From: Entophlyctis helioformis
Taxonomy: Eukaryota > Chytridiomycota > Chytridiomycetes > Chytridiales > Chytriomycetaceae
Length of the DNA stretch: 64,000 nt
Reading direction: 5' to 3'
Assembly: GCA_025526915.1 (NCBI GenBank)
Contig: JAHLKH010000022.1
Span: forward strand, 124,001-188,000
Positions 366 to 45,032 of this stretch are shown piece by piece. The notes below the pieces were generated by a model, which searched no databases, was not told the origin of the DNA, and saw nothing but the letters and a program-made list of their open reading frames with translations. The translations under genes and the position numbers were made by a program. Each line of letters opens with the position of its first letter. The first letter of the stretch is position 1.

Positions 366-1812
366 ATGATAGCGATGTACGGGCAGCGACGGCAGCGGCT
401 CTACGGCCTTGGCTTCAACGGCTTCGGACAGCTGCGACCGCAGAGCAAGCCGCATGGCAGCAGCGCAGATGCATGCGTCTGTCGCACATCGCCGGTGCTC
501 ATGCTCGACTGGCCTGTGCTGAACGAAGCCACCGACACGCTGCTTGGCGTCTACGCCGAGTTCCAGACCGTCGTCGCATGGACATCCAACCGCATCCTGC
601 TGTGGGGATGGACGCTGCCATACACCGGCGGCAAGAGCGACCCTGCTCTGTCCAGCAGCGATGCCACTGCGCCATGCACTCTGCGCGTGCTTCCAGAGTC
701 AGAGTCGCTTGTCAAGTGCCAATGCACAGCTGTTGCCACGAACGGTCGAGGTGACTGTGGCCAGATCGTCGCGCTCACATCAGCCTCGCGCCTGGTGCTT
801 CTGCGGCCTGGGCTGCAACCGATGCAGCAAGCCGATGACGACGAGGCACAAGCCAGACCATCCAAGCGCACCAGGCGCGATCACAGCACCATGGATGCAT
901 TCACGGCAAACCTCGACGGCAGCAGCACATTCACCATCGTTGCGGCAGGCTGTTCCGACTTTGCCATCTCGTCGGCATGGGGCTCGGCTGCCACAACAGA
1001 CGGCCGCGTACTGTGCTGGCCATTGTCCGACCCAGCATCACACCGCGCACTGTCGATATGGCAAGACGACCTGCCTCTGTCCAGACACGCCAGATTGTCT
1101 TGTCTGTCGGCTGGTGCTGTTCACTTTGCTGCACTGGTGGACGGCACAGGCGATGTTGCCACCTGGCGCTGCGGACCAACACGGGCGTTGCACGGACAGC
1201 TGGGGTATATAGACCAGACATCGCCAGAGACAAGCAGAGGCAGCAGCCATTGTAGCCGTTTAGACGCGGATGATCAGATCGGCAGGGTCGTCGAGGCATT
1301 GCAGGGTCTGCATATCGTGTCTGTGGCGGCTGGCAGTGGTGGCACGGGCGGTGGATGGCACACGATGGCTGCATCGCAAGACGGCACGCTGTACAGCTTG
1401 TAAGCTTTGCGAGGGGTTGCCAAGAGCGACCGGTTTGGATGTCTGCATGACTGACACAAACATGGCCATCCACGCAGTGGTGCAGATGGAAACGGCCAGC
1501 TCGGCCATGCATCTGATCACGCGGGGTCGAGGGGACTTCCCGAGCCACTGGAGCTGGACGTGTTGCCCGAAGGCACAGATAACGCGGACAGGCGGATTCA
1601 GATTGCATGTGGCACGCACCACAGCGTTGTGTCGGATGGGACGCCGAATATTTGGCTGCGGCTGGAACAAGTACGGGCAGCTTGGACGATCGCAAACAGA
1701 GCGCGTATCGCCCATGCAGATACTTGACATGGGCGATCAGGAACTGGTACCTGCGACGAGCAGCATACAGGTGTATGCAGGTGGATGGAACACGTTTTGG
1801 AGCCACATGTAA
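366..1812 (+). CDS. RCC1-repeat protein, RCCD1-like, two exons with one apparent frameshift
   Basis: Exon 1 (366-1399) opens with YGLGFNGFGQL, the kind of first blade seen in RCC1-domain proteins such as RCCD1. The intron is 1400-1477 (GTAAGC...CGCAG, with a CTGAC branch site). Splicing restores a repeat, YSFGADGNGQLGH, followed by CGTHHSVVSDG and then IFGCGWNKYGQLG, all classic RCC1 blade motifs. Between the last two motifs, near 1645-1655, the frame must shift by one base, otherwise it stops at about 1727. I read that as a consensus error. The stop is at 1810-1812. RCC1 folds are seven-bladed propellers acting in GTPase exchange or chromatin binding; the exact role here is unknown. The start could also be the ATG at 375. 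Confidence 0.72.
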
Positions 1813-2075
1813 CAATCCCAAACAATAGACTGTCCAGCACAGGCCGTTGTTCATTGTTATCCTTCATGAAGTGAGTGCAACAACTGCTTGGACGCGCGTC
1901 TTTTACAGTCATTGCCGAGTCAGATGGAGACGGCAGCAGCATGCCAACGCGACCAAAAGATCGATGATGGTGGGAGACGTATATCGGAATGTATTTTGGG
2001 ACACTTGGAAGATGCAAAGGAAACAATGGGGGAGATGGGCATAGCAAAGATGGAGATGGTCGATGCTGGGATGGA

Positions 2076-5000
2076 TCAAGCACTTGTGGCATCCTGGTAT
2101 GTGCCGAAACAGTAGTAGTCCTGCGAGCCGGGAGGGTTGAGGACACCGACAGCTGGAGGTGCAAATGCCGACACGCCCGTTGAGAGCCAAGATGGTGAGG
2201 GCAGTGCCCGTGTCCATGGCGATCTGAGATGAACGTTTGGCAGTTAGAATACATTGGCTGTTGGATGTTCACAGGATACCCGCGAACAGCTGGCAAGCAG
2301 GAGATGCAGAGACGCAGACGGGACTTACAGCAAACACGTAGTTGTACTTTGCCCACCAAGCACGGTGCTTGTTGAAGAGGTACCACTGCGAGTACCACGA
2401 AAGGAAGAAGGCGGTCAGGATGTACGAGTTGGTGAAGCCAGCCAAGCTCGTGAACGTCAGAAGCGGGAAGTTGATGTACTTGAAGAACGCGACCTTGGTC
2501 AACTTGTACAGTCCCCACGACGTCAGCGGCAGCAGGAGGCCAAGCGCAAAGCCCAGAGCGTGATAAAGTATGGCGAGCCAGGGCCAAAGAACCGCATGGG
2601 GCCAATCGCACCCCAAATGACACCAGCGTTAACGAAATCTCGGTATAGATGTTCAGCCAGGCTGGGTCTTGGTAAACGAGCCACATGAGGTTGTCCATCA
2701 CCCAGAATGCCGTGAGGGTGTTGAGCACTGCGCCAATCAGAGTGCCGTACAGCTGTGCGAATGAATGGGCGGATGCCGAGTCAGCAAGACTGGCGTTGCG
2801 TTTGGCAAGGTTGGCCAACGCATGTCGTACCTGAGCAATGACCATGTGGATGGGCGAGATGTGCAGGTAGTGGCCAAGCTTCAGGTCCGAGGTCAGGAAC
2901 AGGCCCTGAATGACCAAGTTGAATGCAAAACTCTTGAATGTCATGACGGGCACAAGCTGCGATTGTTTCGATGCAACACGCATGACGGCCGTGTCAATGA
3001 CTGTGCACTCTTCGACAAAGCATCAGACGCGTAGAGCAGCCACTGCCATCTTACCTGGCCTGGGATAATCAGACCGATGACGAATTCACTGATGACGTTG
3101 AGACCAGGCTGCACACCCGTCACGCCTTGAATGATGCCAAAGGGAAGCATGAAGACGGTGGCAAGCGCAAAGCCAAGAAGTGTCGCCCACCACTGCAACT
3201 TGAACGGCGTGAACTCGCACACAACGATCATCACAACAGGAAGAAGCCAAGGAAGACAGCATAGATCCAGTCAGGCACATCCGTGTACGGGGACACGGGT
3301 ACAGACTTCTCGCGGCCGCTCTTGCCGTTGCCCTCGGACTTGGAAAGGCCAAACAGCTTCTTGAACTGAGCAGCAATGTCCTTGCCGTGCCACAGAGCGA
3401 CGTGCATAAGTACAGCCGAGGCGTTCATGAACGACGAGAAGTAGTCCAGGGCGAACGTCGGCGAGAGATAGATGGGGCGAAGCTCGTCGATCAGCGCCGA
3501 TTGACGTCGGAGCCGTTGACCAGAGTGGAGACGTCGATGCCTGTTCCGGTTCTATCAAAGAGTTCGACAGATGCCATAGCCGAGACATTGTGCCAGGTGC
3601 CGAATCCATCGCGCAGACGCATGTCGCCCAGCATTGGATTGCCAAACAGGTTGGAGAAGTAGACGATGGGGCAGATGACCCACAGCCAAATGATGGTGCC
3701 GGTGAAGAAGTTGACGGACGCAAACCACGGCGACGTGATGGGGTGGACCATGGAGGTGATGTTGGACCAGTCAAACGTCAAGGAGAGGACGCCAAAGCCC
3801 TCGCGGAGCTTGACGAGCCCAGGATCCGCGCGTTTTTGGATGCAAAGAAGCAGAGGAGAGACACGGCTTGGAGCACGGTCATGCAGTAGGACGGAATGAT
3901 GCTCCAGACGGCGCAAAGGCGAACACGAACCAGAAGAACGTGTAGCCGAGAGGGCGAGCGAGCCCTTGGTCTGGGACTCGTCTTCATCGCTCTTGTCGTG
4001 GAACGACACAAAGAGCGCGACCGTGGACAGGTTGGACGGCCAAAGCATCCGACGGACGCACAAGGATGCCGCGGAAGAGACCGGCAAGTCCATAACCGAT
4101 CATCTGGGACGAGATGACCCACGCCAGCGAGTTCCACACCGTGACTTGCTTGTCGTTCTGCCAAGAGCATACACGTGCGAGATATCCAGTCAGATGCATG
4201 CTGGGTTATCCACAGAGAGAGTGCCATCCAGACATCGAGACATTGCCACTTACAAACTTGAGACGCTGCGCAAGGACATTGTCGAGACCGTAGGCAATAC
4301 CGCAGCAGCGCCGGCGATAATGTACACGATCACATGCTCCTTCATCGAGAACGGGCCTGGGTTGAGGATGCCCTTGGCAGCACCTTGGAGAGGAAGACGC
4401 CCATCGGATAAGCGAGGAGCGTCGCGGCGCCCGTTGGCACTGTAAAGTAGTTTGTGCGGAAGAGAAAGACGCTGTTGCAGATGGCGAGGATGACTGCCCA
4501 AAGCGTGCCCAGGAGGAACGCGCGGACGGTGAACGACGGCGTGTCTGGATCGTCTTCGGCGGGCACGAGCGCGGCCGTGTACTCTTCGGCCGAGATGGGC
4601 ATGGGTCCCTCGCTGTCCTCGTCGCTGTCGTCATCGGCGGCGTCATCGCCAGATACGGGCTTGGAGTCGCCATAAAAGTTGGCTGGGCTGTTGTATGGCG
4701 AAGCAGAGAAGGAGTCGTAGCGCATCTTTTGGGAAGCGGGCAGGCCGTAGCGGGTTGGCGAGGATGCCCAGGCAGGCAGCATCTGGGGCTCTTGGCCCTG
4801 CATCTGCATCTGCTGCATCTGCATCTGCTGCTGCTGCTGCACCGGAGGGGGGGCCGTACAGGTCGGTGGCGTTGCGGACAGTGTGGCTGAAGAAGTTTGC
4901 GGGCGGTGATGAGCGGGCCTGTGCCCCAAAAGAGCCAGCAAAGCCAGTGACAGCGGACGGCACGGGTCCAGGCATGGACGGCATGGGCGATGGCGATAAG

Positions 5001-5434
5001 AGCGCCGACGGCTGGCCGACCTGCGAGCCCTGCTGGAGCGCCTGTTGCTGCTGCTGCTGCGCTTGCTGCTGCTGGTCAAGCTGCTGCTGGAGCTGCTGCA
5101 TCTGCAGCATGAACGCTTGGTACTGCTGGAACTGCTGGTCGAACGAGATGTCGCCGGCAGACTGGCCGACCTGCGAGCCCGGCTGCTGCTGCTGCTGCTG
5201 GGTGCCGTCTGGGCCATTGGCGGGCGGCTCGGCAGGCATCGAAGGCGGCCAGACGGGCTGGCTCTGGCCTTGTTGTTGTTGCTGCTGTCCAGGAGGCGGC
5301 CGCATGCTGCAAGGTATGGGGCTGCGTTGTTGGATGGACGGAGGAGTCTGTACCACAACGCTGTCCACCACGTTGTGCACCATGCACAGCGCCGATCTCG
5401 AAATCAAATTTTCATTGGCCGACGACGTGCTCAT
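2076..5434 (-). CDS. OPT-family oligopeptide transporter with Gln-rich N-terminus; many 1-base frameshifts
   Basis: A multi-pass plasma-membrane proton/oligopeptide symporter of the OPT family. Diagnostic pieces in order: NPGPFSMKEHVIVYI, MLWPSNLSTVALF, LREGFGVLSLTFDWSNITS, WWATLLGFALATVFMLPFGI, PGLNVISEFVIGLIIPG, FFLSWYSQWYLFNKHRAWW and YNYVFA. About 200 N-terminal residues from the ATG at 5432-5434 are Gln/Pro-rich and cytoplasmic by position. Introns include 4157-4255, 2985-3054, 2771-2831 and one before the last exon; the last exon stops at 2076. About a dozen single-base shifts lie between 2172 and 4853, for example in the G7 run at 4847-4853. Between them the protein stays fully conserved, so these look like sequencing gaps in homopolymers. 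A recent pseudogene is the alternative. Confidence 0.88.
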
Positions 5435-5651
5435 CAACCAGCCAATCAAACGGCGCCGCATGCCAAGACGCCAGCAGCGGCATCGCATAGAACGCCAAGG
5501 AGACCCCCGTGGCCAGCAAAGCCGCCACCCATCACGCCCAGCGAGCTTGCCTCTCTGTGCGCCTCGCCAAGTGCAGCCAGCACGACGTCCGGCCTTGCGT
5601 TGCGCAAGTGTCAGCAAAAGAGCTGCTCGCAGCAGACAAACAGACACAGAC

Positions 5652-8600
5652 TTACGTGGCTTGGCCGTACTGAACATCAACACGCGCCGACCAGCTGCCG
5701 CACGGATAGTGGAACATGCCATCATCGCCTTCGTCGTCGCCAAGCCCGAATCCAATGTACGCCTTGAAGCGAGTCTTGGCTGCAAACGAGAAGAAGACGC
5801 ACTCGAGCAGCACTGCAGCGCCATCAAGCCCAAGGCCGGGATCCGAGACGACTTTCACGTGCGGACAGACGCGTCGCGTATGCACCATGTCGCGCCAGAA
5901 CCCCTTGAAGTTCTCCCACGTGTACGCCACGTCGTCCAGGACGCGCTTCATCTCTCGCCACCCAGTGCACACTGGATGGCGTCGCTCGTATGCGTTGAGC
6001 ACATCCTGCACCTGCTCATACACTCTTGTCAGCACACGCGGCACAGACACGCCGCACACTCGGCCGCCCCAAAAAACACATACATTCTGCGTGCCAACAC
6101 CGTCAAGCACATCGAACCCATGGGCATTCGTCTGCACCAAGATCTTGGACACGCGTGACTCTTCCAGACGCTGCACCGTCGACAGCTTGACAGACACAGC
6201 CTCGCCTTGCTTGTAAAAGGCCACCTGCACAACATCGTCGTACACAAACACCTGGCGAGCAGCAGAAATCTCCGTCGGCCGCCAAAGGTGCGTGAGCACA
6301 GCCGTCTTGTACTCGTGGCGCAGGTGCGGGAGATCTTCAGGGTCAAACACCATGAGATCCTTGGACAGCTCTTCGTACTGAGCAATAGCGGCGTGCAGCC
6401 CATCCGCAGAGGACTCGGTTGCCTGGATGCCTGCCGTTTCCTCATCCAGTTGGCGCTGCATGTCCTCGAGCTCCTTGATCAGCGTTTCCATCTCGGACCT
6501 GCTCCATTATGCCAAGGTCAGCATAATCGACAGCTTACTCAGCTAGAGCATACCAACTTGCCTCTGCTGTTCCTCAAGCAGCGTGAGCTCAGCAATCCTC
6601 GCTGTCTCTGCCTTCTCCGCCTCTTGCTGCCTGCATCACCAAAACACACCAAATGTTAGCACTATACCATACCAGCACAAACAAATCGCAACTCACTCTT
6701 GCTGGAGTGTCGTCAGCTTGCTGCTCAGCTCGTCACGGTACGCGGCTCCATCGCCGTTTAACAGCACAAACTGCTTCTCGAACTCGTCCAAGAAACGCTT
6801 GTCCTGCACACGGTGTGAGTTGCTCAAGTTCAGCTCAGCACCACTGCTTTACAATGTGCTCGTTACCCGCATGAGTCGCTTGCGGTTCTCTTCGAGCGCA
6901 TCCTGAAGCGGCTTGATCAGCTCATCGCGCCAAGTGTACCACGCCTGCTTCGACTCGAGTTTGGCAAACGACTTGCTGATCCGCAGATTGCTCTTTCATC
7001 CACGCAAATCAGCACAAACACAGGAACTGCAACACAATGCAAGCCAATCCAAGCCATGCCATGCCATGCCAACTCACTGCAATCTCGTCGCGCTCTTCCG
7101 GTGTGCCTTCCGCATACTCAATGAAAACCATGGGCATGTCGTTGATCACCTCTGCCTCAATCTCCTCGAGTCCTGCCTTGCCCTCGGCCACGTACTGCGT
7201 CAACTCGCGGCATCCCTGCCATGCGTTCCACACGACCATGGTCAGCACCATGACCGGTCATTGCAGACTCTGTCGCACCAGCAAACAAAAACGCCATGTC
7301 CACACGCACAAACTCGTAAATCTCAAGCTCGGGGAAATGGATGCACGCCGCCTTGGCATACTCGACAAGCATCGGCTCGGCGGACGCGCGTGTCAAGAAC
7401 TTGTTGGTCTCGCGACGCAGCCGTGTTGTGAGGCCATCCATGAAATCGATTCCCGTCCTTGTCAAAAAGTCCTTGAGCGTCACAATCTGAAGGTCCTCGT
7501 GCTGGTCCGCCATCGGATGAGTGCGGGCAGTCTTGGCCTTGTCCAGGCTGCCAAGCGGCATCTGGTCGTTGGCGTTGGCAGCGTGACTGGCCGGCTCGGG
7601 CTGATCGTCGTCAAACGCCTCTTGGTAGAACGAGCCGTCCACCACAGAGAGATGCTCGTCCATCAGATCGTCTTCCGTGTCGTTCAGATCCAGATTCGGG
7701 TCTTCTTTCTTGTCGGCCTGCGTCTGGGCAGGCTCTTGGACGCGCGGCTCGACATCGTTCTTGGCATCAAACAGCTTTTCGGAAAGTGACTTGCGTGCAC
7801 CTGCCCAGCCATACAGACAACAATCAGCCCAGGCAAAGGACAAGTGCCAAACGGTTCAGAGACATACTTCGTCGGCGACTGGCAGAGCCTGGCGTCGCGA
7901 AGGTTCTTGGCGTTCTTGGCGAGAACGGAGCAGGCGATGCTGCGCCAGGAGTCGACATGACATGCGAGGCGAGTGGCGACTCGTCACCAACAAAGCCAGT
8001 CTTTTGCGCTGACATGATCGCCTTGGAGCGGCTGCGTGTCACGGGCGATCCGACGTCAGGCAACGAGAGTGCAGGCGAGTTTGCAATCGGACTGGCAGCA
8101 GCAGCAGCAGAAGCATCGGTGGCAGCCTGCTGAAGCCTCTCACGATCCATTCGCTCTCGCTCCTCGAGTTCAAACTGTCGCTGTTTAGCAGCAGCCACAA
8201 CAGAGGAGGCGGACGCCTTCAGCGCAGACTTGAGGAGCTTTGGCGTGGTGCCAGATGTCAGCCCAGGCGTCTGGCGCTTCTTTGACGCTCTCGCACCTGC
8301 AGACGCATGTAATGGCGTGTGTCCAGCACCAGACAGACGCGCAGAAGTGCGCCGAACTGCAGCCAGACAATCATGGTTATCCGAGAGAGTGAGCATCAGT
8401 GATTTTGAGTGGCACAGCAGCGCAAAACAGATATGACGTACCTGGAGTGGCGGCGGGCTCAGGCGTGGAGATCATCGAGTCGTCCTCGTCAAAACTGTCT
8501 TCTGGTGGTAAGATCTGCTGCAGCCTGGCAGGCGACTTGGCAATCGACACTCGCCGCGATTTGAGGTCGCGCTGCTTGGAAGCATGGACGCCTTCATCCT

Positions 8601-32938: not shown

Positions 32939-34018
32939 TCACACAGCCAGTGCAGGCGGTTTGTCGAGTCCGACGAGCTCGCGCACCGACCGACGGAGAC
33001 GACGGTCGACCGAGACAAAGATGATGGGGTTGGCAAGCGTGTTGATGGCGGCAATGATGGTCGAAATGCCATCGACCTGCCACGACACCTTCTTGCCCGT
33101 GAACATCTGCACAAACGAGAGGGCAACAACACCTATCCACAGGGCAATGAACACGGACGAGATGGCGATACCGCGGAAGGCGACATTGCGCAGGGCCTCG
33201 TCGAACTGGCCGGCAATGCGCGCCGACGAGCCAGCGGCGCCGCTGCTGCTGCGGTTGCTGGTCTTGCCGGGAGCATCCGCACTGTTGTTGCTCGACTTGA
33301 GCACCGCATCGTCGTGGCGGTGGTCGGCCGACGCGGAGAGGGAGCCCTTGCTGCCGCTGGTCGGCGACATTTCGATGCTCGCCGTGTGGGTGTGCATGAC
33401 GTTGCGGATGCTCTCATCGACGACCTTGATCTTGGACCACACCGACACGTAAGCCCAGATGACGACGACGGGCACGACAATGAGCAGCAGGTCGCCATAG
33501 ATGTTGATGGCGACCTGCACGGGGTTGCGCGACGTATAGTCAAAGTGGCAGTGGAGATTGGCAGGCTCAATGACATAGCCGCTGCCATCGATGTACACCA
33601 TGAGCGACGAGACGATGGATATGATCCAGCAGAGCAGAAGGTAGATGCCCACACGCTCGCGGGTGACGTTGAGCCGCTCGCGGCAGATGACGTTCCACTG
33701 GTTGAACGACATGAGGGCAATGGAAATGACGGCGGCCGAGGCGGTGGCCTGCAGCGTGATGCCGACGATCTGGCAGCTCGCCGGCGAGCGCACGGCAGGG
33801 ACGCCGTTGGAGAAGGAGACGGCCGAGACGATGGTGACGAGAAGAGCAAAGATGGTGTCGGCGACGACCAGACTGAGGTTGAAGAAGTAGTCTGGCGTGC
33901 GGCGGGTGCGCATGATGGCGGCCAGCACGACGGTGTTGGCAATGACGGCTGCGGCCGAGATCAGCATGATGACCAGGAACAGCGTGCCGTGGTAGTCGGG
34001 ATCGGCCTCGGAGCTCAT
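32939..34018 (-). CDS. Class A-like seven-transmembrane receptor
   Basis: A 359-residue single exon, ATG 34016-34018. TM1 has the conserved Asn (AAVIANTVVLAAIM), TM2 reads FFNLSLVVADTIFALL, TM3 starts at SCQIVG, and NQW stands at the DRY position. ECL2 Cys is in LHCHFDYTS. Loop 3 is Ser/Gly-rich, TM6 begins AISSVFIALWIGVVAL, and TM7 reads AAINTLANPIIFVSVDRRL with NPxxF in place of NPxxY. An Ala sits where opsins carry the retinal Lys. A short basic helix 8 follows. Together with its neighbour this looks like a local receptor pair, perhaps an old inverted duplication (inference). Confidence 0.85.
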   Translation of the reverse strand: MSSEADPDYHGTLFLVIMLISAAAVIANTVVLAAIMRTRRTPDYFFNLSLVVADTIFALLVTIVSAVSFSNGVPAVRSPASCQIVGITLQATASAAVISIALMSFNQWNVICRERLNVTRERVGIYLLLCWIISIVSSLMVYIDGSGYVIEPANLHCHFDYTSRNPVQVAINIYGDLLLIVVPVVVIWAYVSVWSKIKVVDESIRNVMHTHTASIEMSPTSGSKGSLSASADHRHDDAVLKSSNNSADAPGKTSNRSSSGAAGSSARIAGQFDEALRNVAFRGIAISSVFIALWIGVVALSFVQMFTGKKVSWQVDGISTIIAAINTLANPIIFVSVDRRLRRSVRELVGLDKPPALAV

Positions 34019-34350
34019 GTCTGTCAGCGAGTCCTGCTTTGTTGCGTGTCCGTGTCAGCAGCCGCACAATTTGCTTTGTCGAGGCAGCGTGGCGTTCAAG
34101 CGGGGGGCGTTTTTTGGACGACGCAGTGATGCTCACGTAAACGGCAAGGAGGGGCGGCTGCGTGCTGGAGGGGGCTGCTGGGATAGGGGGCGGGGGCGGG
34201 GACGGGGGGCACCGGCAGGAGCAGTGGCCTTGTGCGTCTAGTCTCTATCTGCGCTGGGCAGCGTGCAGCGAATGGGCGGCGTGCGGTGTCGAGCGGCGTG
34301 CACACTCGGCAGTGTCGGTGACGTCAAGATACTGAGAGCGGGGGGAAGCA

Positions 34351-34373
34351 GGCCCGGTTCTCATACCATTACC
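34351..34373 (+). repeat. Left terminal inverted repeat
   Basis: Starts GGCCCGGTTCTCATACC. It matches the reverse complement of 42351-42373 at 19 of 23 positions, including the unbroken blocks GGCCCG, TCATAC and ATTACC. Found by eye; no flanking duplication is certain. Confidence 0.6.
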
Positions 34374-34390
34374 CCTGGTGGAATATTCCT

Positions 34391-34515
34391 GATTGGTCAA
34401 CTCTTGGTGTAATCGCTGTGATTGGTCGATCCTGGTGGAATCGGTGTGATTGGTCAACTCTTGGTGGAATCGCTGTGATTGGTCGATCTTGGTGGGATCG
34501 CTGTGATTGGTCGAT
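34391..34515 (+). repeat. Tandem 28/29-bp repeats, each with an inverted CCAAT box
   Basis: Units begin GATTGGTC at 34391, 34420, 34448, 34477 and 34505. Two forms alternate: type A continues AACTCTTGGTG (29 bp) and type B continues GATCCTGGTG (28 bp), giving a 57-bp dimer. A partial unit (CTGGTGGAAT) precedes the first. ATTGG is the reverse of the CCAAT box bound by NF-Y/HAP factors. There are no unique spacers, so it is not CRISPR-like. The position just inside the left inverted repeat suits either a promoter or a transposition-protein binding array. Confidence 0.85.
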
Positions 34516-34661
34516 CTAGAGAGCCCTTGCACAGTGCAGACACTGCGTGATGCGAGCACAGCAACGACAGTGGTGCAGGCAGCAGCGCCTGCTGTCTCGC
34601 TGGGCCGTGCGTGTGTGTCCTCCATGAATAAAGAGGGGCGAATGCATAGTCATGTGCAACG

Positions 34662-34681
34662 CTCTCTCTCTCTCTCTCTCT
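34662..34681. repeat. (CT)n microsatellite
   Basis: About ten CT dinucleotides upstream of the XPG-Fanzor gene; a short CA tract follows at about 34698-34708. Pyrimidine tracts like this are common in fungal promoters and 5' leaders. Confidence 0.85.
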
Positions 34682-34808
34682 GAGGAGCATGCCAATCCAC
34701 ACACACACAGACCAGTGCTCCATGTGTTGCTGCCAACCATCAGTCTGATATTACGAGAGCAGCTTGCCCGTAAAACGACCGACACAAAACAACACACAAC
34801 AAACACAC

Positions 34809-37800
34809 ATGGGAGTCGACGGCAGTCTCCCCACCATCGACAAGAGAGGTGGTGTCAAGACATACAAAGCAGACACCCCTCTGCCCACTGCCATTCAGGC
34901 CATTGCCCAGCAGCAGCCAGATGCAGCAGCAGCAGCAGCAGCAGCAGTCGACTCTGAGCCCATCAGCTGCATCATCCATGTCGACATCCTTTGCCTGCTC
35001 TTCATTGACATTATGTAAGGAGTGGCACCGACCATTGCCGCGCCTCCAACTTGGCCGCGGCCAATCACATGGGCCGCAATTCTGCGCCGCAGGATTGCAG
35101 TGTATAAAAGGCACATTTCGCCGCTTGGCAAGCCCGCTAGTGGTCTAGACACTTACAGCTTGCCAGGTACGCTGCTCTGCTCTGATGACGCTCATTCTAG
35201 AATGAAGAGACACTTACAGCTTGCCAGTGCCAAGCGTCACACATTATGAGAGCAGCAGCCGCAAAGCCGCCCCAGTCTGACAACGACTGGAGGCTGCTAC
35301 TCGAGCCGCTCATCAGCAGCCTCGCCGCAGCCATTGGACAGCTGCACACAGTCCAGCTGCACGTCGACGGCTCGCAGCTCGACACCGCCATCAAGGCTGC
35401 CTATGCCGGGCGGGCCTGGGCAGCATTGGAGGCGGCATCCTTTCTCATGGCTGAGGCAGCCAAGCGAAATACCGGCCAGAAGAGCGGCAAGCTCTCGAGG
35501 TGTGCCACTTGCTGCTGTTGATCTGCATGCTGTACTGACTCAATGCCATTCCAGAAACGAGATGCAGCGCCTGCAGAAGGCATACCCCCTCACACGCGAG
35601 CGCAAGGCAGCCATCTCGAGGGCCCTGGGCAGTCTTCTCAGATACTTCAAAGGCGGGTCGTCTGTGTGCCTTTGCGAGAATGAGGCGGATGTTTGCATCG
35701 CACGCCATTCCCACAAAGCAAGGTTGGTTGGTCTTCTGCATGCCTCTCCAATCCATGGCTCACGCGCCTTCTTGACAGCGATGTGCCAGTCATTGTGATC
35801 AGTGGCGACTCCGATCTGGTGTTCCACTGTGCCGGCTATTGCCCTGTCCTGCTGCTGCAACTGCGCAGTGGGCAGATCAATCGAATGCGATCATATAACC
35901 ACCATGGCATTGCCTCTATTGCAGCCACCTTAGGCTTGCCAGACATTCCCTTTGTCTGCCAGTTGGTGGCCGCAATGGCGAGCAACGACTATTTCCATTG
36001 TGTTGGGATTGGTAGGTTGGCTTGCCTGCTTTGCATTTTTGGATGTCATGCACTGCGACCTTGACTTACTCGTGATGCTGCGATGTGGACTTGAAAGGGA
36101 TCGTCACGGCTGCAAAGTGCATCATGGCATGCATTCGTTTGGAGGCAGAGCAGCTGGGCATCTCTGTCACGGATGTCTGTGAATGCCTCCAAGACCCCGA
36201 CATTGCGAGGATGTTTGTGCATGTCATCAAGATTGCGTTCATGTGGCAGATGTACAAGATCGGCGGCAAGCCTCTTGCTCAGTCATTCAGCAATGCCTTC
36301 GCGGTGTTTCTCAACTGTGACGAGAAAGGAGCCGATATTGGAGAGATCACAGCCCCAGCATGTGGCCATTATGCCAGTGTGTTTGCAGGACAGATGCGGC
36401 AGTAAGTCTTGGTTTGGATGCACTTGGACAGCATGGCATTGACATGAATGCATGCACCATCCAATGGCGACAGCATCACTGCCAACAGGACCATCTCGCC
36501 CCAAAACAGGTAGGCACGGCTGCGATCTCTGCAGGATTCTTGTGGCACTGACTCTGATGGATGCCACTGGCAGATCTGCCTCTGCATGCACGGCCTACAG
36601 CAACTGCTGCTTGAGCCACACGGCACAGCAGCTAAAGGGCAATGCCAGTCGTGCAGTTTGGCACCTCACACAGGACGCAGTCACAGAGCTCGCCAACCAC
36701 ACTGTCAGCACAAGGCGGATGGACGGCGTTTTTGGCGAATTCAATGGCTGCCGTGTCGTGCTTGGCTGCATCCTCCGGTGCACAGCAGATCAGCTTGCCA
36801 ATGACAGCATCAACGGCCGCGACATCCTTGCTGATATCTGCGAGAATGCAAGCAAGCAGCTGCTCCAGGCTGTGCACGAGAAGGATCTTGCTACAAAAGG
36901 ATATGAGATACTCAGCCCAGCTGAGCAGAGCCTGTTACACGCCTTTGTGAGTTTTGGGTGGCTTGGATGCGTGTCTTGACTGTCCACTGCATGCTGTTGC
37001 TGATTTTGAGCATGGCTGACTTGATCCATCACTGGGCGAGCAGATGGTGATCCTGAGACTGCAGGAACGGCTCAAGAGGTATCCAGGCGTCGCATGTGCA
37101 CCATTCAGGCGGTCAAGGAAGCCAGGTTCGCTCTGCATTTGTTTGGCACAGTGCGACCTTGTGTATTCACAATCAATCACGGCATTCTTCTGGCAGGCAA
37201 CCGCAAGGCTAAACAGCACCGCAGAAAGAGCACACGGATCGCGACTCGAAAGGCTGTCGCTGCCATTCGCAAACAGGCCGTAGATACGCTGAATCTCTTG
37301 GAATGCCAAAAGAAACACAGCCCGGACGACTTCAAGCCGCTGGCACTTTCTGAGCAGTATCAACAAGCAACGGACGCGCTGAAACTGATCATTGACAGGG
37401 CTCCAGTGCGTCTTTGCATTTCTATGCTCTGTTTGCATGTGGCGGCTTGATGCACCTGCTCATGCTTTGACTTGACAGGTCGGCAAGCCACCGAAAGCGC
37501 CAAAGATGCTGCTGCCATCTCCAGCCGCAGCTGATGGCACAGATCGCGACAAGATCCTCTACATTGATGTGCTTCAAGACACAAAGACAACCGTGAGTTG
37601 AACTGCAGGCTTGTGATTGTGAGCATCTTGTGCACATTCAGAATGCACGCCTAAGATTGCATCCAAACACGGCAGGAGCCATACCTTGTCACACTGGCCA
37701 GACAGGCTGTATTCAAGAAGGAGCGAGAAGAGCGTGCAGAGAAGGCCAAGGCAGATGAGATCATCAAGGAGCTCAAGAAGGATGCAAGCAAGCAAGCCCG

Positions 37801-40800
37801 CCAGGCTCAATCTGAGGACGAGACACAGGCGTAAGTGGCATATGGCATGTCGCGTGCCTTGATTGTGCTTGCTGACATGCATTCTGCTGGCAGATACGCA
37901 TTTCATGCAAGACGCACCTTGCACAATGAGCTTGTCCGGATGGGCGACTACAAACAAGGGGCCTGCCAGACTCTTCCTGCAGCCGCCAATTTCAAAGCAC
38001 CAACAGAGGAGGGCACGGAGAAAGACAAGGAGAAGGACGAGCACGAGCGCGAGCAGGAGGCACAGCAGCATCCCAAAGCACCAAAGGCTCAGACAAACAC
38101 GCAGCAACATCGCCCCAATATGATCGTGGATCTGAAGGTATGGGGGTTGATCGCCATGCTGCTCTGCATGCTCGGCTTTTTGCATGCTGACAGGTGTGCA
38201 GGAGATGGTTTCAGACAATCCAGCAAGCGCAAAGTTGTTGGGCCCTCCAGCCAAACCACCATCAGCAGAGCAAACCATCGCCATGGTTGTCCTAGCCTGC
38301 ATTTCCAAGGTTTACACGTTCATCGTCGGCGCTCGGCATGTCGGGATTGTGATGCTTGGCGCTGTTCTTGAAGTACTGCTCAAGCTTGAGTCAGATGAGC
38401 CACTGCCTCTCGATTATCGCGTTTTCAAGTGGACCCGCGATGGAAAGACCAACTACTGCTTTCTTGATCGCGAGAAACTTGACCGCAAGACAGAGGCTGC
38501 GCTCTTGGCAGGATACTGTGTGCTGGAACAAGACACCATGGTCCGGTTTATGTACGGCGTTGGTCCACATGGTCGCAAGGGCAAAATCCCTTTCTATGGG
38601 GATTCTGTGATCCTCTCAAAGGACACAGTGCTTGAGCTCTGCTCGCTCGGACACGTCAAGAAGCCCAAGCAGCCCAATGGCCCCAATGACCCTGACGGTC
38701 CTGACAGCCATGAGGACGATCGCGACCACGAGGATGATGATGATCATGATGACCACGAGGACGATGACGATCATGAGGATCACGAGGACGATGAGCAGCA
38801 TGATGACCATGAGGATGACGAGCAGCATGAGCAGCACGAGCAGCAAGCAGAAGCAGAAGCAGAAGCAGCAGCAGTCATTCCAACTGCCAATCAACTCCTC
38901 ACAGCACTGACCAGCAGCAGATCCGGTGGCGAGACGTCTGTGGCATGTCTCCTACGCCACATTGTCACGATTGTTGGCAATGGTCGCATGGCAAAGCCGC
39001 GATCATATATGGACACCACCAACGCATGGCTGGTCACCGTCATGCAACTGATTGTTCACCGTAACTGGACGCGGCGCATGGTGCACGCCAATGCAGGCAA
39101 GGTGCGTGCAGACATGGCTGATGCTGACATGATGGGCATGGATATGATGGATGCTGACAAGATGGACGCGATCCAGACAAGCGCGATCCAGACAGATTTG
39201 GACAAGGCAGTCCTGCCATGCAAGCTGGCTGTTGGTCTGTGTGGGAAAGCGGCCAATGACATCTACAGCTACTTGGCCAGAGATATCTGCACCATGCTGG
39301 CAGTGCATGCCATCTCGAACCAGTCGATGCTCATGCTTGCTGCTGCCCACCAGCTGATGCCCGGCGCATCAAAGGAGGAGGTCGTGGCATCAGTCGCGGC
39401 CATGACCAAAGCCATTGAGGATGCCACGCCACTGGCCGCCGAGGATGCCACACCACAGGTCGCTGAGGACGCCATGCCACTGGTCGCTAAGGACGCCCCA
39501 TCGCTGGCCGATCTTGACGCTGCACCACAAGCCACTCTGGATGCTGCACCTCCTGCAACAGGTCGCAAGAGGGCCCTGTCTAGCTCTTCGTCGCCCACCG
39601 ATTGCACCGCGACCAAGAAGCCATGTGGCGAGAGGGACGAGGCCACCACAGACGCGGCATCCAGCACACCTTCAGACACAGAGGGCATAGCCATTGCTGG
39701 GATCCCCCAACAGCTGGTCAGGCTTGCGGCAATCTTGCTCAACAAATCGCTGTCGGAAATAGGCAAGTTCTACCGGCTGCGCAAGCTGGCTGGCGAAACG
39801 GTGATCAAGTTATGCCCTGAGGCGGCGAATCGGGACCCATTTGTCCATATCACCGAGACCATTCTGTTTTGGTCGGTGATAGGGAACCCAAAGGATCGCA
39901 AGCCAACCAAGAACAACGCGGCATTGCAGGCTTTGCAAAAGCGTCTCTTGGCTGCGATCAGCAGTAGGTCGCACTTGGTTATGCCATGTTTACATGATTG
40001 GATACTTACAAACCACTCTTCTCAAAGAGCCTGGCTCGCAAGCCTTGACTCTTGCGTCATCCAACAAGGACATACAAGCCGCTTTCAGCTCAAGCCGCGA
40101 GGATTGCGTTCTCGACATTCTCCTCCCCGGACTCGCCTCGGATACACGACGCTTCCAGACGCCTGCAGACGCTAAGGTCCAGATGGACGCGGCTGCCAAG
40201 GCCAGAGCAGACGCCATTGCCGATGCGACTCTTGAGGCCAAGAGACTCCTTCTGGTTGGCAAGGTGCGCGAGGATTACATCCAGGCTGCGATCAAAGCCC
40301 TGCCCCCAGCGCGACCAACCAAGGCCGTCAGACTAGGCAGCATCAAGACCGATGGATACAGCGTCTCTCAGCTGACTCTGGACTTTCGCACAGACCGTCC
40401 AGAGTCGCCTCGCAGTATGTGGCGCACTTGAATGCGATGGTGCACACATTGGTTCTGACATCCGCCTTGATCTGCAGGTCCCAACGCGGCGTCTTCAGCC
40501 CAGCAACTCAGTCTTGCTGGTGATGCTCATGATCACATGGACGTCACATGTGAGTTGCTGTACCAATCCAGACGCGCACTTGTTGACCACACCAACTGAC
40601 ATGCCATCCACAGCCACCAATCCAGCCGACCCATCAGCCACAAGCCAAAAGTGACCAATCCTGTAAGCCACTTGCATGCTAAACTCGCGCATTGGTGCAC
40701 ATGCACTGCACATTCCTCACTCATGCCATGGCATGACAGGTCAAGCGCAACTTTTACGCCTCGCAGCGACTGCCCGATGTTGCTGATGCCAACAAGCTGC

Positions 40801-42225
40801 TCGCCAACAAGGGCTACCGGTTTGTGTGTATTGTCAGCTTTGATTGGGGCGAGCGGTACCTGTTTGGCGCGTCCAGCATGCTGGTCAATGTCAAGGAGGA
40901 GACATACACGCTCGAGGCCAACTACGTGCTCTCCTCTGGCGTATTCATGCTGAGCGTGACCTTCAGCGGTGGTATGCATGCAATGACTCTGCCACATGCA
41001 CTCTTGACCAGATCAACTCACAGTGCCTGCATCCTGTGCCAGGCTCAACAATCGATATGCCAAGGCGACCGATGTCCACGAGGCCATTGCATTCAAGACA
41101 GCAACGCATGCCGATCCAAACGCCACAGCAGGCGAGAGAGCCTTTTGGGATCTGCGCTGCCATGCGTACTGCTCGCCATTCCTGAATGCACGGGTACGGT
41201 TTCTCTGTTTCTGTATGCCCATTGACATGACCGCCATGCTGCTTGATCGCCTGCTGATTGCACTGGATGGCACGGCATGACATGGCATTCCACAGAAGGT
41301 CAAGGCCAAGCGGTTCACCATGTGCAGCAACAGCATGTCTATTCGCGGAAACGCTCTTGAGGGCATCATGAAGCTGGCAGGCTCGACCACTGGCAAGCGC
41401 GCATCTGCTGCGTCTCAAGGCCTCCCTGTCGACCGAACAAAGTCGACAGAGGACAACATTCCTGTTGTGTGGGCATTTGGCATCGACTTTACAGGCCAAG
41501 GTGGCAGGCACGCTGTGTTTGAGAGGTTTCTCATCAGGCATCTGCGGTCGTCTGGATATGCCTATGTGCGTCTGATGCCACACTGTCCATCCATCCATCC
41601 ATCTGTGCACCAACTGACCACACGATCCTGCACACACACACACACACACTCACAGATCTACCGCTGCAATGAGAACCTGACCAGCCAGATGTGCCCGCAG
41701 TGCAAGCAGCGGATCCCATACGAGAACCGCACCAACCTGCGACGCTACGAGTGCATACCATGCGAGACTGTCTACCACCGAGACGTGCTTGGAGCCACCA
41801 ACATCGGGATGGTCGCGCTGTGGCATCTGCTCTTTGGACACCGGCCGCTCTACTTGACGCACACCAAAGCCGACAGCAATCCAGCCACGCCAGAGCACCT
41901 CAAAAGCATCGCAAGAATGCATACTGCCATCAAGCTGCGTGCACGAGATGCTCCGCCTGTTGTCCCACAGCCTCAAACGCGGAAACACTTCAAGTCGCAT
42001 GTGGCCTCATGGGACCAGATCAGCCTGCCGTCCTGTGGTATTCAAGACGTGCTGTACAGCAGCGTTCAAGACACGGACCATCCGTCGTCCAGCTGCGACC
42101 AGCACACAGACAGCCTGCCCTCAAGTCACTTGACCTGCATCCCACACAGTGACTTGTTTGACTACCAACTCTTTGAATCGGGGGACCTCCCGATCGACCT
42201 AACGGGTCACTTCAATAGAAGGTAA
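34809..42225 (+). CDS. XPG/FEN1-like nuclease fused to Fanzor (eukaryotic TnpB) nuclease, 19 exons
   Basis: Exons 34809-35014, 35251-35499, 35555-35722, 35779-36011, 36098-36401, 36474-36509, 36574-36946, 37058-37405, 37479-37592, 37676-37830, 37894-38137, 38202-39963, 40028-40414, 40478-40559, 40614-40662, 40740-40971, 41012-41193, 41296-41565 and 41656-42225 join in phase to 1987 residues. The N-terminus is XPG-like: MGVDG, HVD59, CENEADVCIA (Glu193, Glu195, Asp197), SGDSD (218, 220) and ASNDY (278), then VGIG. Residues ~810-1397 hold a His/Asp/Glu-rich linker and Asp-Ala repeats. The C-terminus is Fanzor RuvC: FDWGER (Asp ~1604), NENLTSQMC (Glu ~1804) and YHRDVLGATNI (Asp ~1841), with a CX2C...CX2C zinc ribbon. 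The acceptor at 37057 is the least certain join. Two separate genes remain possible. Confidence 0.75.
35103..35110 (+). promoter_or_regulatory. TATA box inside intron 1 of the XPG-Fanzor gene
   Basis: TATAAAAG lies 144 bp upstream of an in-frame ATG at 35246, itself just before the exon 2 acceptor. It could drive a shorter transcript lacking the MGV N-terminus of the XPG domain. Flanking direct repeats are at 35147 and 35208. Confidence 0.4.
35147..35227 (+). repeat. Two identical 20-bp direct repeats flanking a palindrome
   Basis: Copies at 35147-35166 and 35208-35227 are identical (AGACACTTACAGCTTGCCAG). Between them lies the 12-bp palindrome CATTCTAGAATG (about 35193-35204). All sit in intron 1. 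Each copy ends GCTTGCCAG, which resembles a splice acceptor, so the duplication may offer alternative acceptors. Confidence 0.75.
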
Positions 42226-42237
42226 GACCCTCGTTGG
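42165..42237 (+). ncRNA. Candidate omega-RNA 3' structure overlapping the Fanzor stop codon
   Basis: Complementary segments nest around the end of the frame: CCAAC 42165-42169 with GTTGG 42233-42237; TTGAA 42173-42177 with TTCAA 42211-42215; ATCGGG 42177-42182 with CCCGAT 42189-42194; GACC 42196-42199 with GGTC 42205-42208. Together they form a branched fold with two hairpins inside a closing stem. Fanzor and TnpB guide RNAs are known to overlap the 3' end of the nuclease gene and to continue toward the element end, here 42373. The structure was drawn by eye and the RNA is not proven. Confidence 0.4.
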
Positions 42238-42350
42238 ATGTGTCTCGCCCGCCTGTCGTCGCATGCTCGTTGCTGACTCGAACCTTCAATCGTGTGATGT
42301 GCTTGCTTGCATCCGTCGCCTCTCTGGTCGAATTTAACTCCAAAATCCTT

Positions 42351-42373
42351 GGTAATTGTATGAATATCGGGCC
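42351..42373 (-). repeat. Right terminal inverted repeat
   Basis: Reads GGTAATTGTATGAATATCG and then GGCC on the plus strand, the inverted partner of 34351-34373 with four mismatches. It lies 126 bp after the Fanzor stop codon, the distance expected if a guide RNA fills the interval. Confidence 0.6.
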
Positions 42374-42592: not shown

Positions 42593-45032
42593 TCAAAACT
42601 TGAACTCCTTGGTCTTGTCCTTCTTGCCGTCGCCTCCGGCCTTCTTCTGCCGCTTCGCACTGGCGCCGGCCGCATGCTCTGCAACCAGATCCGAAAAGTC
42701 CTCCTTGGCGACCTCGGCTCGCTTGGCCGTGGTCTGCTGCTCAAACTTGCGCTTGAGCGTCGCTTCATCTATGCCGCCGCCCGTGAGGTCTTCCGGATTG
42801 AGCGCCACATCGATGGACGACGACGTGATGCCGAGCTTGCGCTTGGCGGCGGCGGCTTTGGCGGCAGCGCTCTCGCCCGCTGGCCCGCCCGAGGCCGTCG
42901 TCGTCGACTCGAGATCGTACACGTACTGGCTGCCCATGAAGCCCTTGATGGCCGACTCTTTCTGCTCAATGACTTTGTACAGCTGCTTCGGTGCCTCGGG
43001 CGGCGCCGGTGCAGACACGCCGGTGGGTCTGTCGCGTGGCAATGGCACCAACAACCATTCGTCAGTACACTCGCAAGCACACTCGCAAGCACAGCACCGA
43101 TGACGCTCGCCAATGCGTACCGCTTGCGCAGCTCGATAAACTCGGGCGTCTCCAGCCCACTGGGCACGCTGGACAGACCGCTGGGAGTAACAAGACCGTC
43201 GGGCGGAAGCTGGCCGCCGTGGCCTGCCGCACCCTCGTCCTCGTCCTCCTCGTCCTCGGATCCCTCCTCCTCCTCCTCCTCTTCCTCTTCGGGCTCGGGC
43301 TCAAGCTCACCCCACAGCGTCTTGTCCACGGGCTCAGCATCCTGCCATCACCATCATCATCACCATCGCCATCCTCAAAGCGGTCAGCCTCGTGTCCAGA
43401 TGACGACAAGCGCCAACACGATCTGCTTACGGCACTCTCCAATGCGGCGGCCTCGATGCCAAACACGTCGCCGTACAGCGGCCGGTTGGCCTCGTCGACC
43501 GGCGGCTTGCCCCAGCCGCCTGGATGGTATCCCCACTGTGCACCCTGTGGAATCGGCGCGTTCAAGCCAGGCACCTTGAGCTGCGGATAGCTGGGCGGCG
43601 GGCCATACCGCTGCATGTTGATGAGCCATGGCGGCGGCGCAAGCGGCGGGATGTTGAGCGCCATCTTGAGCTCTTCAGACAGATCGCCTGGCTTCTTGAG
43701 CTTGAGCTTGGTCTCAAACTCCTTGCCCTCGTAGTAGCTGGTGCATGCATCCATCCGTCCAGGTTGTGAGCATGATAAGCCAATGTCAAACGGCAGTGGA
43801 TGACGAAAACGGACGATGCGCGACGTACATGTCTCCAAACGCAGACAATCTCGGCTTGGTCTGCCATCTGAAAAAGGCATCGTGCAGCTTCTGGTAGTCG
43901 ATCTCGATCTTGCCCATCTTGGGCTGCATCCGCTCGCGCGTCTTGCCCTTGAGCTTCATCGAATCCTCCTTCTCTCTCACGGCCTCGCGCATCTGCATGA
44001 TGCCCGTCTGCTTGATAAAGTCTGTGCAATGCAGCAGTCAGAGGCAGCCGCGGGCCGCACATGCCAGCAAGCGTTGGCGAGCGACAGACAGAGCGTGTAC
44101 CTGGCAGATCGAATGGCGCCTTCTCCAGGCCGCGTTTGGCTTGCAGATACTTGCGCTTCTGCTGCCAGTGGGCAGGCACGGGGACCGTGTTGCGGCACGC
44201 CTTGATGCTGACGAGCAGCTTGGGATCAGCTGCCGTGACATCGACCCACTGCACCCACAGCGCCGTCGCCGTCGCCATAGGGGATAAGAGCAAGTGCGTC
44301 AGCTTGTGTGATCAGCGCATCAGCGCCATCGGTGCACGCCGGCAGACGGGTACACACCTCGACGACTTCGGGCTTGCGCACGAGCTGCTTCAGCTCAGCG
44401 ACGGTCAGCCGCTGGTTCCTGCGGATCTTCTTCTTGGAGCCGGACTTGCCATCGGCACCCGCCTCGCCGTCGTCGTCGTCGTCGCCATCCACGTCCATCT
44501 CGTCTCCGTCGCGCTCGCGCTCGGCGCCGGCCTCGTCGTCTCCGTTCTCGTCGCCAGCACCATCCGAGCCGGCAGCCGCATGCGTGAACTTGGCGAGCAC
44601 CTGCGCAAAGGCATCGTCAGGCGCATCGGCGAACAGCAGCGCTTCGGGCACATACTCGATGACGACGTCCCCGTTGGTGTCGGCCTGGGCCGCGTCATGG
44701 TTGGTGGTGCTGGCATCGGCGTCGGCGTCGGCGTCGTTGGCACCAGCAGTTGAAGCTGCCGCACCGCCGGCCCGCTTCTTTCTGCGGCGCTTCTTGGTGG
44801 TGTCGGCGGCCTTGCCGGCCTTGGCGGCCTTGCTCGCATCCGCAGCACCGTTGGACGCAGCGCCGTTGGAGGCAGCAGGGGCCAGTTTGCGCTGCAGCAC
44901 CCAGTGGCGGTCGATGCGGGTGACGACGGTTGCACGCGGGCCGACGGGGTCGATGCCCAGGCCGAGGGCGTAGCGTCTGAGCTCGTCGTCGGGCAGCTGC
45001 TTGTACTCGCTGGCTGCGACTGCTGCTGCCAT
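42593..45032 (-). CDS. SF3B2: Splicing factor SF3B2 (SAP145/Cus1)
   Basis: A U2 snRNP SF3b subunit at the branch site. ATG 45030-45032, stop 42593. The N-terminus is a SAP-like helix pair (KQLPDDELRRYALGLGIDP), followed by basic and acidic disordered regions. The DUF382 core runs VEWVDVTAADPKLLVSIKAC, then VPVPAHWQQKRKYLQAKRGL, GKIEIDYQKLHDAFFRWQT and YYEGKEFETKLK. The PSP domain follows: LNIPPLAPPPWLINMQRYGP, then GLNAPIPQGAQWGYHPGGWG and KPPVDEANRPLYGDVFG. It ends with basic KRQKKAGGDGKKDKTKEF. Introns are short GT-AG; no frame correction is needed. It is divergent from peptide deformylase (448 bp). Confidence 0.95.

Follow-up and report, generated by a model that had tools for sequence, protein, structure and literature searches.

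Can two nucleases of different type be joined in one protein of a fungal transposon? This question is raised by a locus in the window, a stretch of 64,000 nucleotides (C22:124001-188000) of the Entophlyctis helioformis genome (29.57 Mb, 482 contigs). The two ends described in the first-pass annotation of this DNA were confirmed: exons with an XPG pattern (34809-36401) and exons with a RuvC nuclease core and zinc ribbon (40740-42225) share a strand, and their introns are of the GT-AG type. Both groups belong to an 8,021-bp element bounded by terminal inverted repeats (TIRs), related copies of which, herein given L numbers, are present in the same genome. Analysis of these copies supports an open chain that contains both an XPG-type nuclease and a nuclease of Fanzor type, and that is predicted to form a single protein.

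An open composite gene

The exon borders of the window copy were transferred by alignment to 14 relatives, and the 15 copies were analyzed by a path search that started at the first ATG, had to reach the last exon, and allowed small splice-site shifts. Four of the 15 were open, L022 (locus G000:C139:32874-40103), L020, L018 and L019, with total displacements of 3, 16, 22 and 60 nt, respectively. All 19 exons of L022 were open throughout, giving a chain of 1,777 residues; the difference from 1,987 residues, the length previously deduced for the window copy, is due at least partly to the shorter middle cassette of L022. Among the 14 relatives, most junctions kept GT and AG and most exons kept their length, including linker exons 6-11 in the window numbering (36474-37830, plus strand), which lie between the two halves. 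The donor of exon 13 as transferred was GG in 10 of the 14 relatives, and the actual donor of L022 was located close by. We read the two halves as one chain because L022 is open, the order of parts recurs, and the splice sites are largely conserved. The XPG-Fanzor architecture holds for the family, and homologues having both domains, without which the fusion was to be abandoned, do exist, all those found being in this genome; the window copy is not the best example.

The earlier claim that nineteen exons of the window copy join without a stop or phase conflict failed at the splice sites conserved among the relatives, owing to an insertion and to an exon reading TGA. The insertion, a mobile sequence of 225 bp in the coding sequence (35016-35240), covers the apparent intron 1 of the window copy and was absent from 13 of the 14 relatives, the remaining one, L010, lacking the region. 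The genome carries this sequence at 13 places including the window, 12 of them full length and three, the window among them, at 100%, with a short duplication at the edges. The insertion carries a TATAAAAGG box, and one further copy is located close to an XPG exon of contig C3. The borders of the insertion together with the duplicated site provide GTAAG as donor and AG as acceptor. Spliced insertions of this kind are called introners, and the 225-bp sequence could be spliced like one; judged from its borders, such splicing is possible, but it would be private to the copies with the insertion.

The second defect was found in the small exon at 40614-40662 (plus strand), which lacks one base relative to 13 of the 14 relatives and reads an in-frame TGA. 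When introns of 40-160 nt were allowed, one stop-free join from exon 14 to exon 17 was found with up to two introns and four with up to three, every one of them employing at least one splice site outside the model of the relatives. The window copy is probably broken at this exon. The proposed in-frame fusion is thus supported by the open frame of L022, the order of parts that recurs in the family, and largely conserved splice sites, and probably not by the copy on which it was based.

Catalytic residues of the two halves

The XPG-type domain is encoded on the plus strand by exon 1, which begins at 34809-35014 with the first catalytic Asp (HVD) and continues at 35251-35499 (HVDG), followed by the exons with the EAD motif (35555-35722) and with the DSD and NDY motifs (35779-36011), and by the C-terminal exon of the domain (36098-36401). 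By alignment of L022 with three other sequences, 35, 37 and 31% identical to it, D56, D106, E193, D195, D216, D218 and D276 were found to be invariant. These seven acids follow the order D, D, E-x-D/E, D-x-D, D, and presumably correspond to the catalytic acids of XPG, FEN1 and EXO1. The XPG/FEN1 family cuts 5' flaps. Host EXO1 of E. helioformis contains EADAQLAF, EDSDLL and GCDYL in matching order. By pattern search over 41 copies, the EAD pair was E and D in all 34 copies in which it was found (not found in 7), and the DSD pair was D and D in 38 of 39 (not found in 2), the exception being G in L044. The Asp of NDY was kept in 35 of 37 (not found in 4; exceptions, L015 and L041), that of HVDG in 30 of 30 (not found in 11), and the first Asp in 22 of 22 (not found in 19), the latter being missed in window-type copies because the pattern excludes their HVDIL. 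Between the window copy and L022, the ratio of nonsynonymous to synonymous divergence (dN/dS) was 0.40 for the XPG part (314 codons) and 0.19 for the exon with DSD and NDY, and the purifying selection in this domain suggests that the protein is used. Searches of the PDB sequences with the XPG part of L022 gave no match. Five matches to ribosomal protein L23 (E value 0.082 and worse), obtained with the XPG alignment, were rejected as unrelated. Structure prediction of the XPG part with 7 sequences gave an unusable model (mean predicted local distance difference test score, pLDDT, 36).

The Fanzor-type half follows on the same strand with exon 14, carrying a TDG stretch ahead of RuvC-I (40028-40414), the RuvC-I exon (40740-40971; DWG at 40842-40850), the exon between RuvC-I and RuvC-II (41043-41193), the exon of the RuvC-II region (41296-41565), and the last exon (41656-42225), which encodes the alternative Glu, the C4 zinc ribbon, the RuvC-III RD and the C-terminal tail up to the stop. 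The zinc ribbon was recognized by Pfam PF07282 (Cas12f1-like_TNB, the OrfB/TnpB zinc ribbon) with 41.5 bits for the window copy and 38.5 bits for L022, over a cut-off of 26.3. The long motif of the TnpB/Fanzor family, D-X(125,275)-[TS][TS]XX-[C4 zinc finger]-X(5,50)-RD in the accessible part of PMC3627910, was found in L022 with a slightly looser search pattern: D1433, TS at 1622-1623 (188 residues between), the C4 finger, and RD at 1655-1656, starting five residues past the last zinc-finger Cys. The alternative glutamate of L022, E1619, is located 6 residues before the first Cys, as in the fingerprint of Fanzors described in the available text of Yoon et al. (PMC10711439), an alternative Glu six residues ahead of the zinc finger. 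Of the RuvC triad, the Asp was kept in 20 of 21 copies, and both the alternative Glu and RD in all 21. The non-coding right end of the element (42226-42372, plus strand), a candidate place for a guide RNA scaffold, contains a block conserved among 22 sequences. When the RuvC/zinc-ribbon frame of the window was read through the last intron, structure prediction was unusable (mean pLDDT 32). A single PDB match to the Fanzor half (E value 0.55) was attributed to chance.

A mosaic family of transposons

The whole element occupies 34352-42372 of the window (plus strand), from a left-end pattern at G000:C22:158352 to a right-end pattern ending at C22:166372. The left TIR (34352-34373, plus strand) agrees with the right TIR (42351-42372, minus strand) at 18 of 22 bases. 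With up to 2 mismatches, the left end was matched at 82 places in the genome and the right end at 125, and control patterns gave 0 matches for either end. Near both TIRs, the similarity of the relatives to the window element fades at common points. Target duplications of 9 bp (8 or 9 positions matching) were detected for 5 of 10 testable copies, compared with 1 of 90 mismatched pairs, in a test in which the right flank of L021 was taken from a wrong place; the flanks of the window element itself match at 6 of 9 positions. From the TIRs and these counts, the element is a TIR DNA transposon, most likely making 9-bp target duplications. TIRs with 9-bp target duplications are a feature of MuDR/MULE elements, and were found here; the MULE transposase PF10551 had no match in the genome (other transposase families were not searched for), and therefore the element was not filed under MuDR/MULE. 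Pfam scans of the element protein chain gave no transposase domain.

More than 100 whole or partial copies of the family are present in the genome. At least 150 genome matches were obtained for the zinc-ribbon exon (88-100% identity; best 150 of 259 candidates) and at least 150 for the XPG exon (best 150 of 157), the copy counts being lower bounds, with some copies yielding two XPG matches and the pairing of XPG with zinc ribbon being underestimated. With pairing limited to 9 kb and to a single strand, 72 of the 150 listed zinc-ribbon matches had an XPG match upstream, and 76 of the 150 listed XPG matches had a zinc-ribbon match downstream. The reverse order on the same strand was observed for none of the 150 listed XPG matches, and a nearby zinc ribbon on the opposite strand for 3 of the 150. 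Likewise, an XPG match follows 64 of the 82 left ends, a zinc ribbon precedes 77 of the 100 right ends listed, and 44 of the 82 left ends have a partner within 25 kb among these 100 right ends.

Segments of fixed place were compared among 20 copies. In the XPG segment, the window copy was 95-97% like each of L009-L017, and L018-L022 were 97-99% alike among themselves. The XPG segments of L009, L012, L013, L014 and L017 were 95-96% like that of the window copy, and their middle segments just 55-57%; the latter were 66-72% like those of L018-L022. The zinc-ribbon segment showed 90-99% identity in all pairs. The switch point (37870-37900) is located close to the border between intron 11 and exon 12, where L009, L013 and L017 turn from window-like to L022-type letters. 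The cassette thus swapped, exons 12-13 (37894-39963, plus strand), is a putative recognition lobe of the Fanzor, as it sits ahead of RuvC-I.

The synonymous divergence (dS) between the window copy and L022 was 0.61 in the XPG part, 1.9 in exon 13, and 0.076 in the last exon, and comparison in 300-base windows including introns gave a dS-like trend for several pairs. The introns around the small exon are also alike across subfamilies. The low synonymous divergence at the 3' side and the alike introns point to recombination or conversion and not to protein selection alone, and on this ground the uniform 3' half is taken to reflect such exchange. The RuvC-I segment of the window copy (40740-40971) was 95% like that of L027 and 83-85% like those of L010, L011, L015 and L016, which are otherwise the closest to the window copy; by these identities, it is a visible conversion tract.

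Several variants of the element were noted. Three short elements of 987, 1,050 and 2,167 bp (G000:C35:164493-165479, C436:7861-8910 and C199:20581-22747, respectively) keep both ends and a zinc-ribbon match, as deletion derivatives comparable to the 'ghost' elements of SpuFz1. All six copies L023-L028 run past the usual right end with a common stretch of about 49 bp (ATTTGCCGGCGGTTTGCCGGC...), and therefore the terminus of this subfamily is longer or different. L029 contains, at about 1311-7962 (reversed), an apparent Ty3-type retrotransposon, as judged by eye, inside the XPG motif exon. L030 (G000:C78) and L031 (G000:C11) form a subfamily with about 3.3 kb from the left end to the XPG exon and a common leader. 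A transposase was sought in copies with longer 5' parts, and two open reading frames of the L030 leader gave no Pfam match over cut-off. The window element is flanked by two host genes on the minus strand, one for a rhodopsin-type seven-transmembrane receptor (32942-34054; Pfam 7tm_1, E value 1.3e-23) and the other for a PSP-domain protein (43065-43955; E value 3.4e-21), which we take to resemble splicing factor SF3B2.

No homologue outside E. helioformis was found in the searches made. Protein-database search, by a method relying on shared five-residue words, gave no homologue of the whole chain (7,993 scored), and two E. helioformis proteins for each half (6,578 candidates; 7,995 scored). 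Among viral contigs, 34 pattern matches included no relative of either half, and a scan of the contig collection with host XPG, EXO1 and FEN1 gave 93 pattern matches, none of which was confirmed. Literature searches for Fanzor with XPG and for Fanzor with Entophlyctis found nothing, subscription papers being mostly outside their scope.

Possible roles and closest known systems

For the function of the composite gene, we tentatively favor, at somewhat less than an even chance, that the high-copy TIR transposon would express an XPG-Fanzor protein, the halves of which would likely act in sequence on one break. The Fanzor half, guided by RNA, would cut a site that is related or free of the element, and the XPG half would trim the 5' ends of the break, so that the cell would repair it by copying another element. 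Such repair would keep or spread the element, and could explain both the cassette exchange and the alike 3' halves. In the available part of their paper, Saito et al. (PMC10432273) drew an analogy with TnpB and discussed propagation in which homologous recombination follows the cut. This mode would be consistent with a resecting domain carried in one chain with the Fanzor. Fanzors are eukaryotic counterparts of CRISPR nucleases. If the favored reading is true, the combination of a Fanzor-type and an end-processing nuclease in one chain would indicate that the cut serves repair by copying, and would open this idea to testing; the natural exchange of middle segments would provide a ready-made library for finding the target-reading part of Fanzor. 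In a bolder form, which we consider unlikely, the protein would be a self-contained RNA-guided 'cut and resect' machine: the Fanzor half would cut a chosen site, the EXO1-like half would open the ends for homologous copying, and the element would spread by directed repair. As a by-product, it would exchange its target-recognition cassette with sister copies via an intron, in a manner comparable to the specificity shuffling of bacterial restriction systems.

Several results weigh against the favored reading. In the path search, 11 of the 15 copies failed, the window copy included; L022 alone was open with only 3 nt of displacement; and the public gene models P0001-P0004 treat the XPG and Fanzor halves separately. 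The Pfam search proposed at first identified the zinc ribbon, as given above, and not the XPG part: the window copy scored 20.2 bits with XPG_I_2 (E value 4.6e-4) under a cut-off of 24.2, L022 scored 13.9 bits, and two of four sequences matched an XPG family at an E value of 0.1 or better. Genome-wide, XPG_I was detected at 4 places and XPG_I_2 at 2, none of them an element exon. Comparison of profiles with the three host XPG/EXO1/FEN1 proteins was weak (probability 1.3%, P 0.039), with a score of 17.4, the highest among 60 shuffles being 16.2. As the match is below cut-off, the domain was named 'XPG-type', as a tentative member of XPG/FEN1/EXO1. RuvC-I reads DWG, not DPG, in 20 of 21 copies (the motif was not found in L012), and DPG is present 'near exclusively' in Fanzors according to the accessible text of Yoon et al. 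(PMC10711439); we therefore write 'Fanzor-type', and not canonical Fanzor by this fingerprint. The metal ligands D383 and N385 of SpuFz1, given in the available part of PMC10432273, suggest by analogy some latitude at this position. The dN/dS of the RuvC half was 0.55 between the window copy and L022, and therefore the copies may be drifting. At the right end, compensatory change was seen in none of 35 predicted pairs, none of four folded ends was clearly better than shuffles, and no Rfam family scored over cut-off. Identity between the window copy and L017 or L022 peaks over the last two exons and drops to 86-88% in the final 200 bases, so that the uniform tract reaches its maximum before, and not at, the extreme end. 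Ordinary excision and gap repair could likewise account for the exchange of cassettes. What had been described as a single fused gene is a high-copy transposon, with its XPG part below the Pfam cut-off and with DWG at RuvC-I.

The mixing of cassettes by gap repair belongs to another explanation, in which the element would be a TIR transposon of the ordinary non-autonomous kind. A transposase from another locus would mobilize it, with the XPG-Fanzor protein as a passenger, and cassettes would be mixed by generic excision and gap repair between the many similar copies. We regard it as doubtful: the TIRs, the 9-bp duplications, the chain without a transposase domain in Pfam scans, and the Fanzor carriers with MuDR-like ends, for which 9-bp duplications and no MuDR transposase are given in the available part of PMC3627910, all agree with it, but the genome lacks a MULE transposase match (other families were not searched for) and the purifying selection on the XPG domain suggests a protein in use. 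It is distinctly unlikely that the fused protein is real and its XPG domain acts, in the course of cutting, on the guide RNA or on the displaced strand instead of the break ends; the conserved catalytic acids leave the substrate unspecified and 5' flaps are what the XPG/FEN1 family cuts, but folding and covariation gave no structured guide RNA and nothing ties the domain to RNA. Very improbable is an artefact, either two adjacent genes of one element that are transcribed separately or a decayed repeat family that encodes no functional protein, which the interrupted window copy, the 11 failing copies and the separate database models would suggest, but which disagrees with the 19 open exons of L022, with linker exons of kept length and splice sites in most of the 14 relatives, and with the dN/dS of 0.40 in the XPG part.

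The transposon with a composite XPG-Fanzor gene, as we favor, may be compared with several known systems. The host XPG, FEN1 and EXO1 (L032-L034) have the motif order in common with the element, EXO1 being closest by eye (EAD, EDSD), whereas the element domain is too divergent for the Pfam cut-off and, within a transposon, is joined to a RuvC nuclease. The literature search for Fanzor with flap endonuclease led to 'Fanzor flap endonuclease homologs' of two viral contigs (PMC11071296), where the names co-occur and, in the part of that paper available, neither a fusion nor a fused XPG domain is described. The MuDR-like Fanzor carriers ROr-4, PBl-3 and MCi-4 (PMC3627910) have TIRs and 9-bp target duplications and no MuDR transposase, and the accessible part of their description includes no XPG domain. 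SpuFz1 of Spizellomyces punctatus, with 42 Fanzor loci and 134 'ghost' loci according to the available text of PMC10432273, is likewise a fungal multi-copy element between inverted repeats, with a RuvC nuclease and protein-less copies; as in our family, no transposase was found inside the repeats, and some loci carry Ty3 insertions. The SpuFz1 locus is, however, about 2.1 kb with a single open reading frame, compared with 8 kb, about 19 exons and 1,777 residues here, and no XPG domain is described for it in that text. MCi-2 of Mucor circinelloides has, in the accessible part of PMC3627910, no recognizable TIRs and no described XPG domain, but, as here, different 5' parts are carried on a nearly identical Fanzor-encoding 3' part. 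MCi-2 is a precedent for a variable 5' part on a constant Fanzor-bearing 3' part; in the E. helioformis family, the switch point is located in an intron within one chain.

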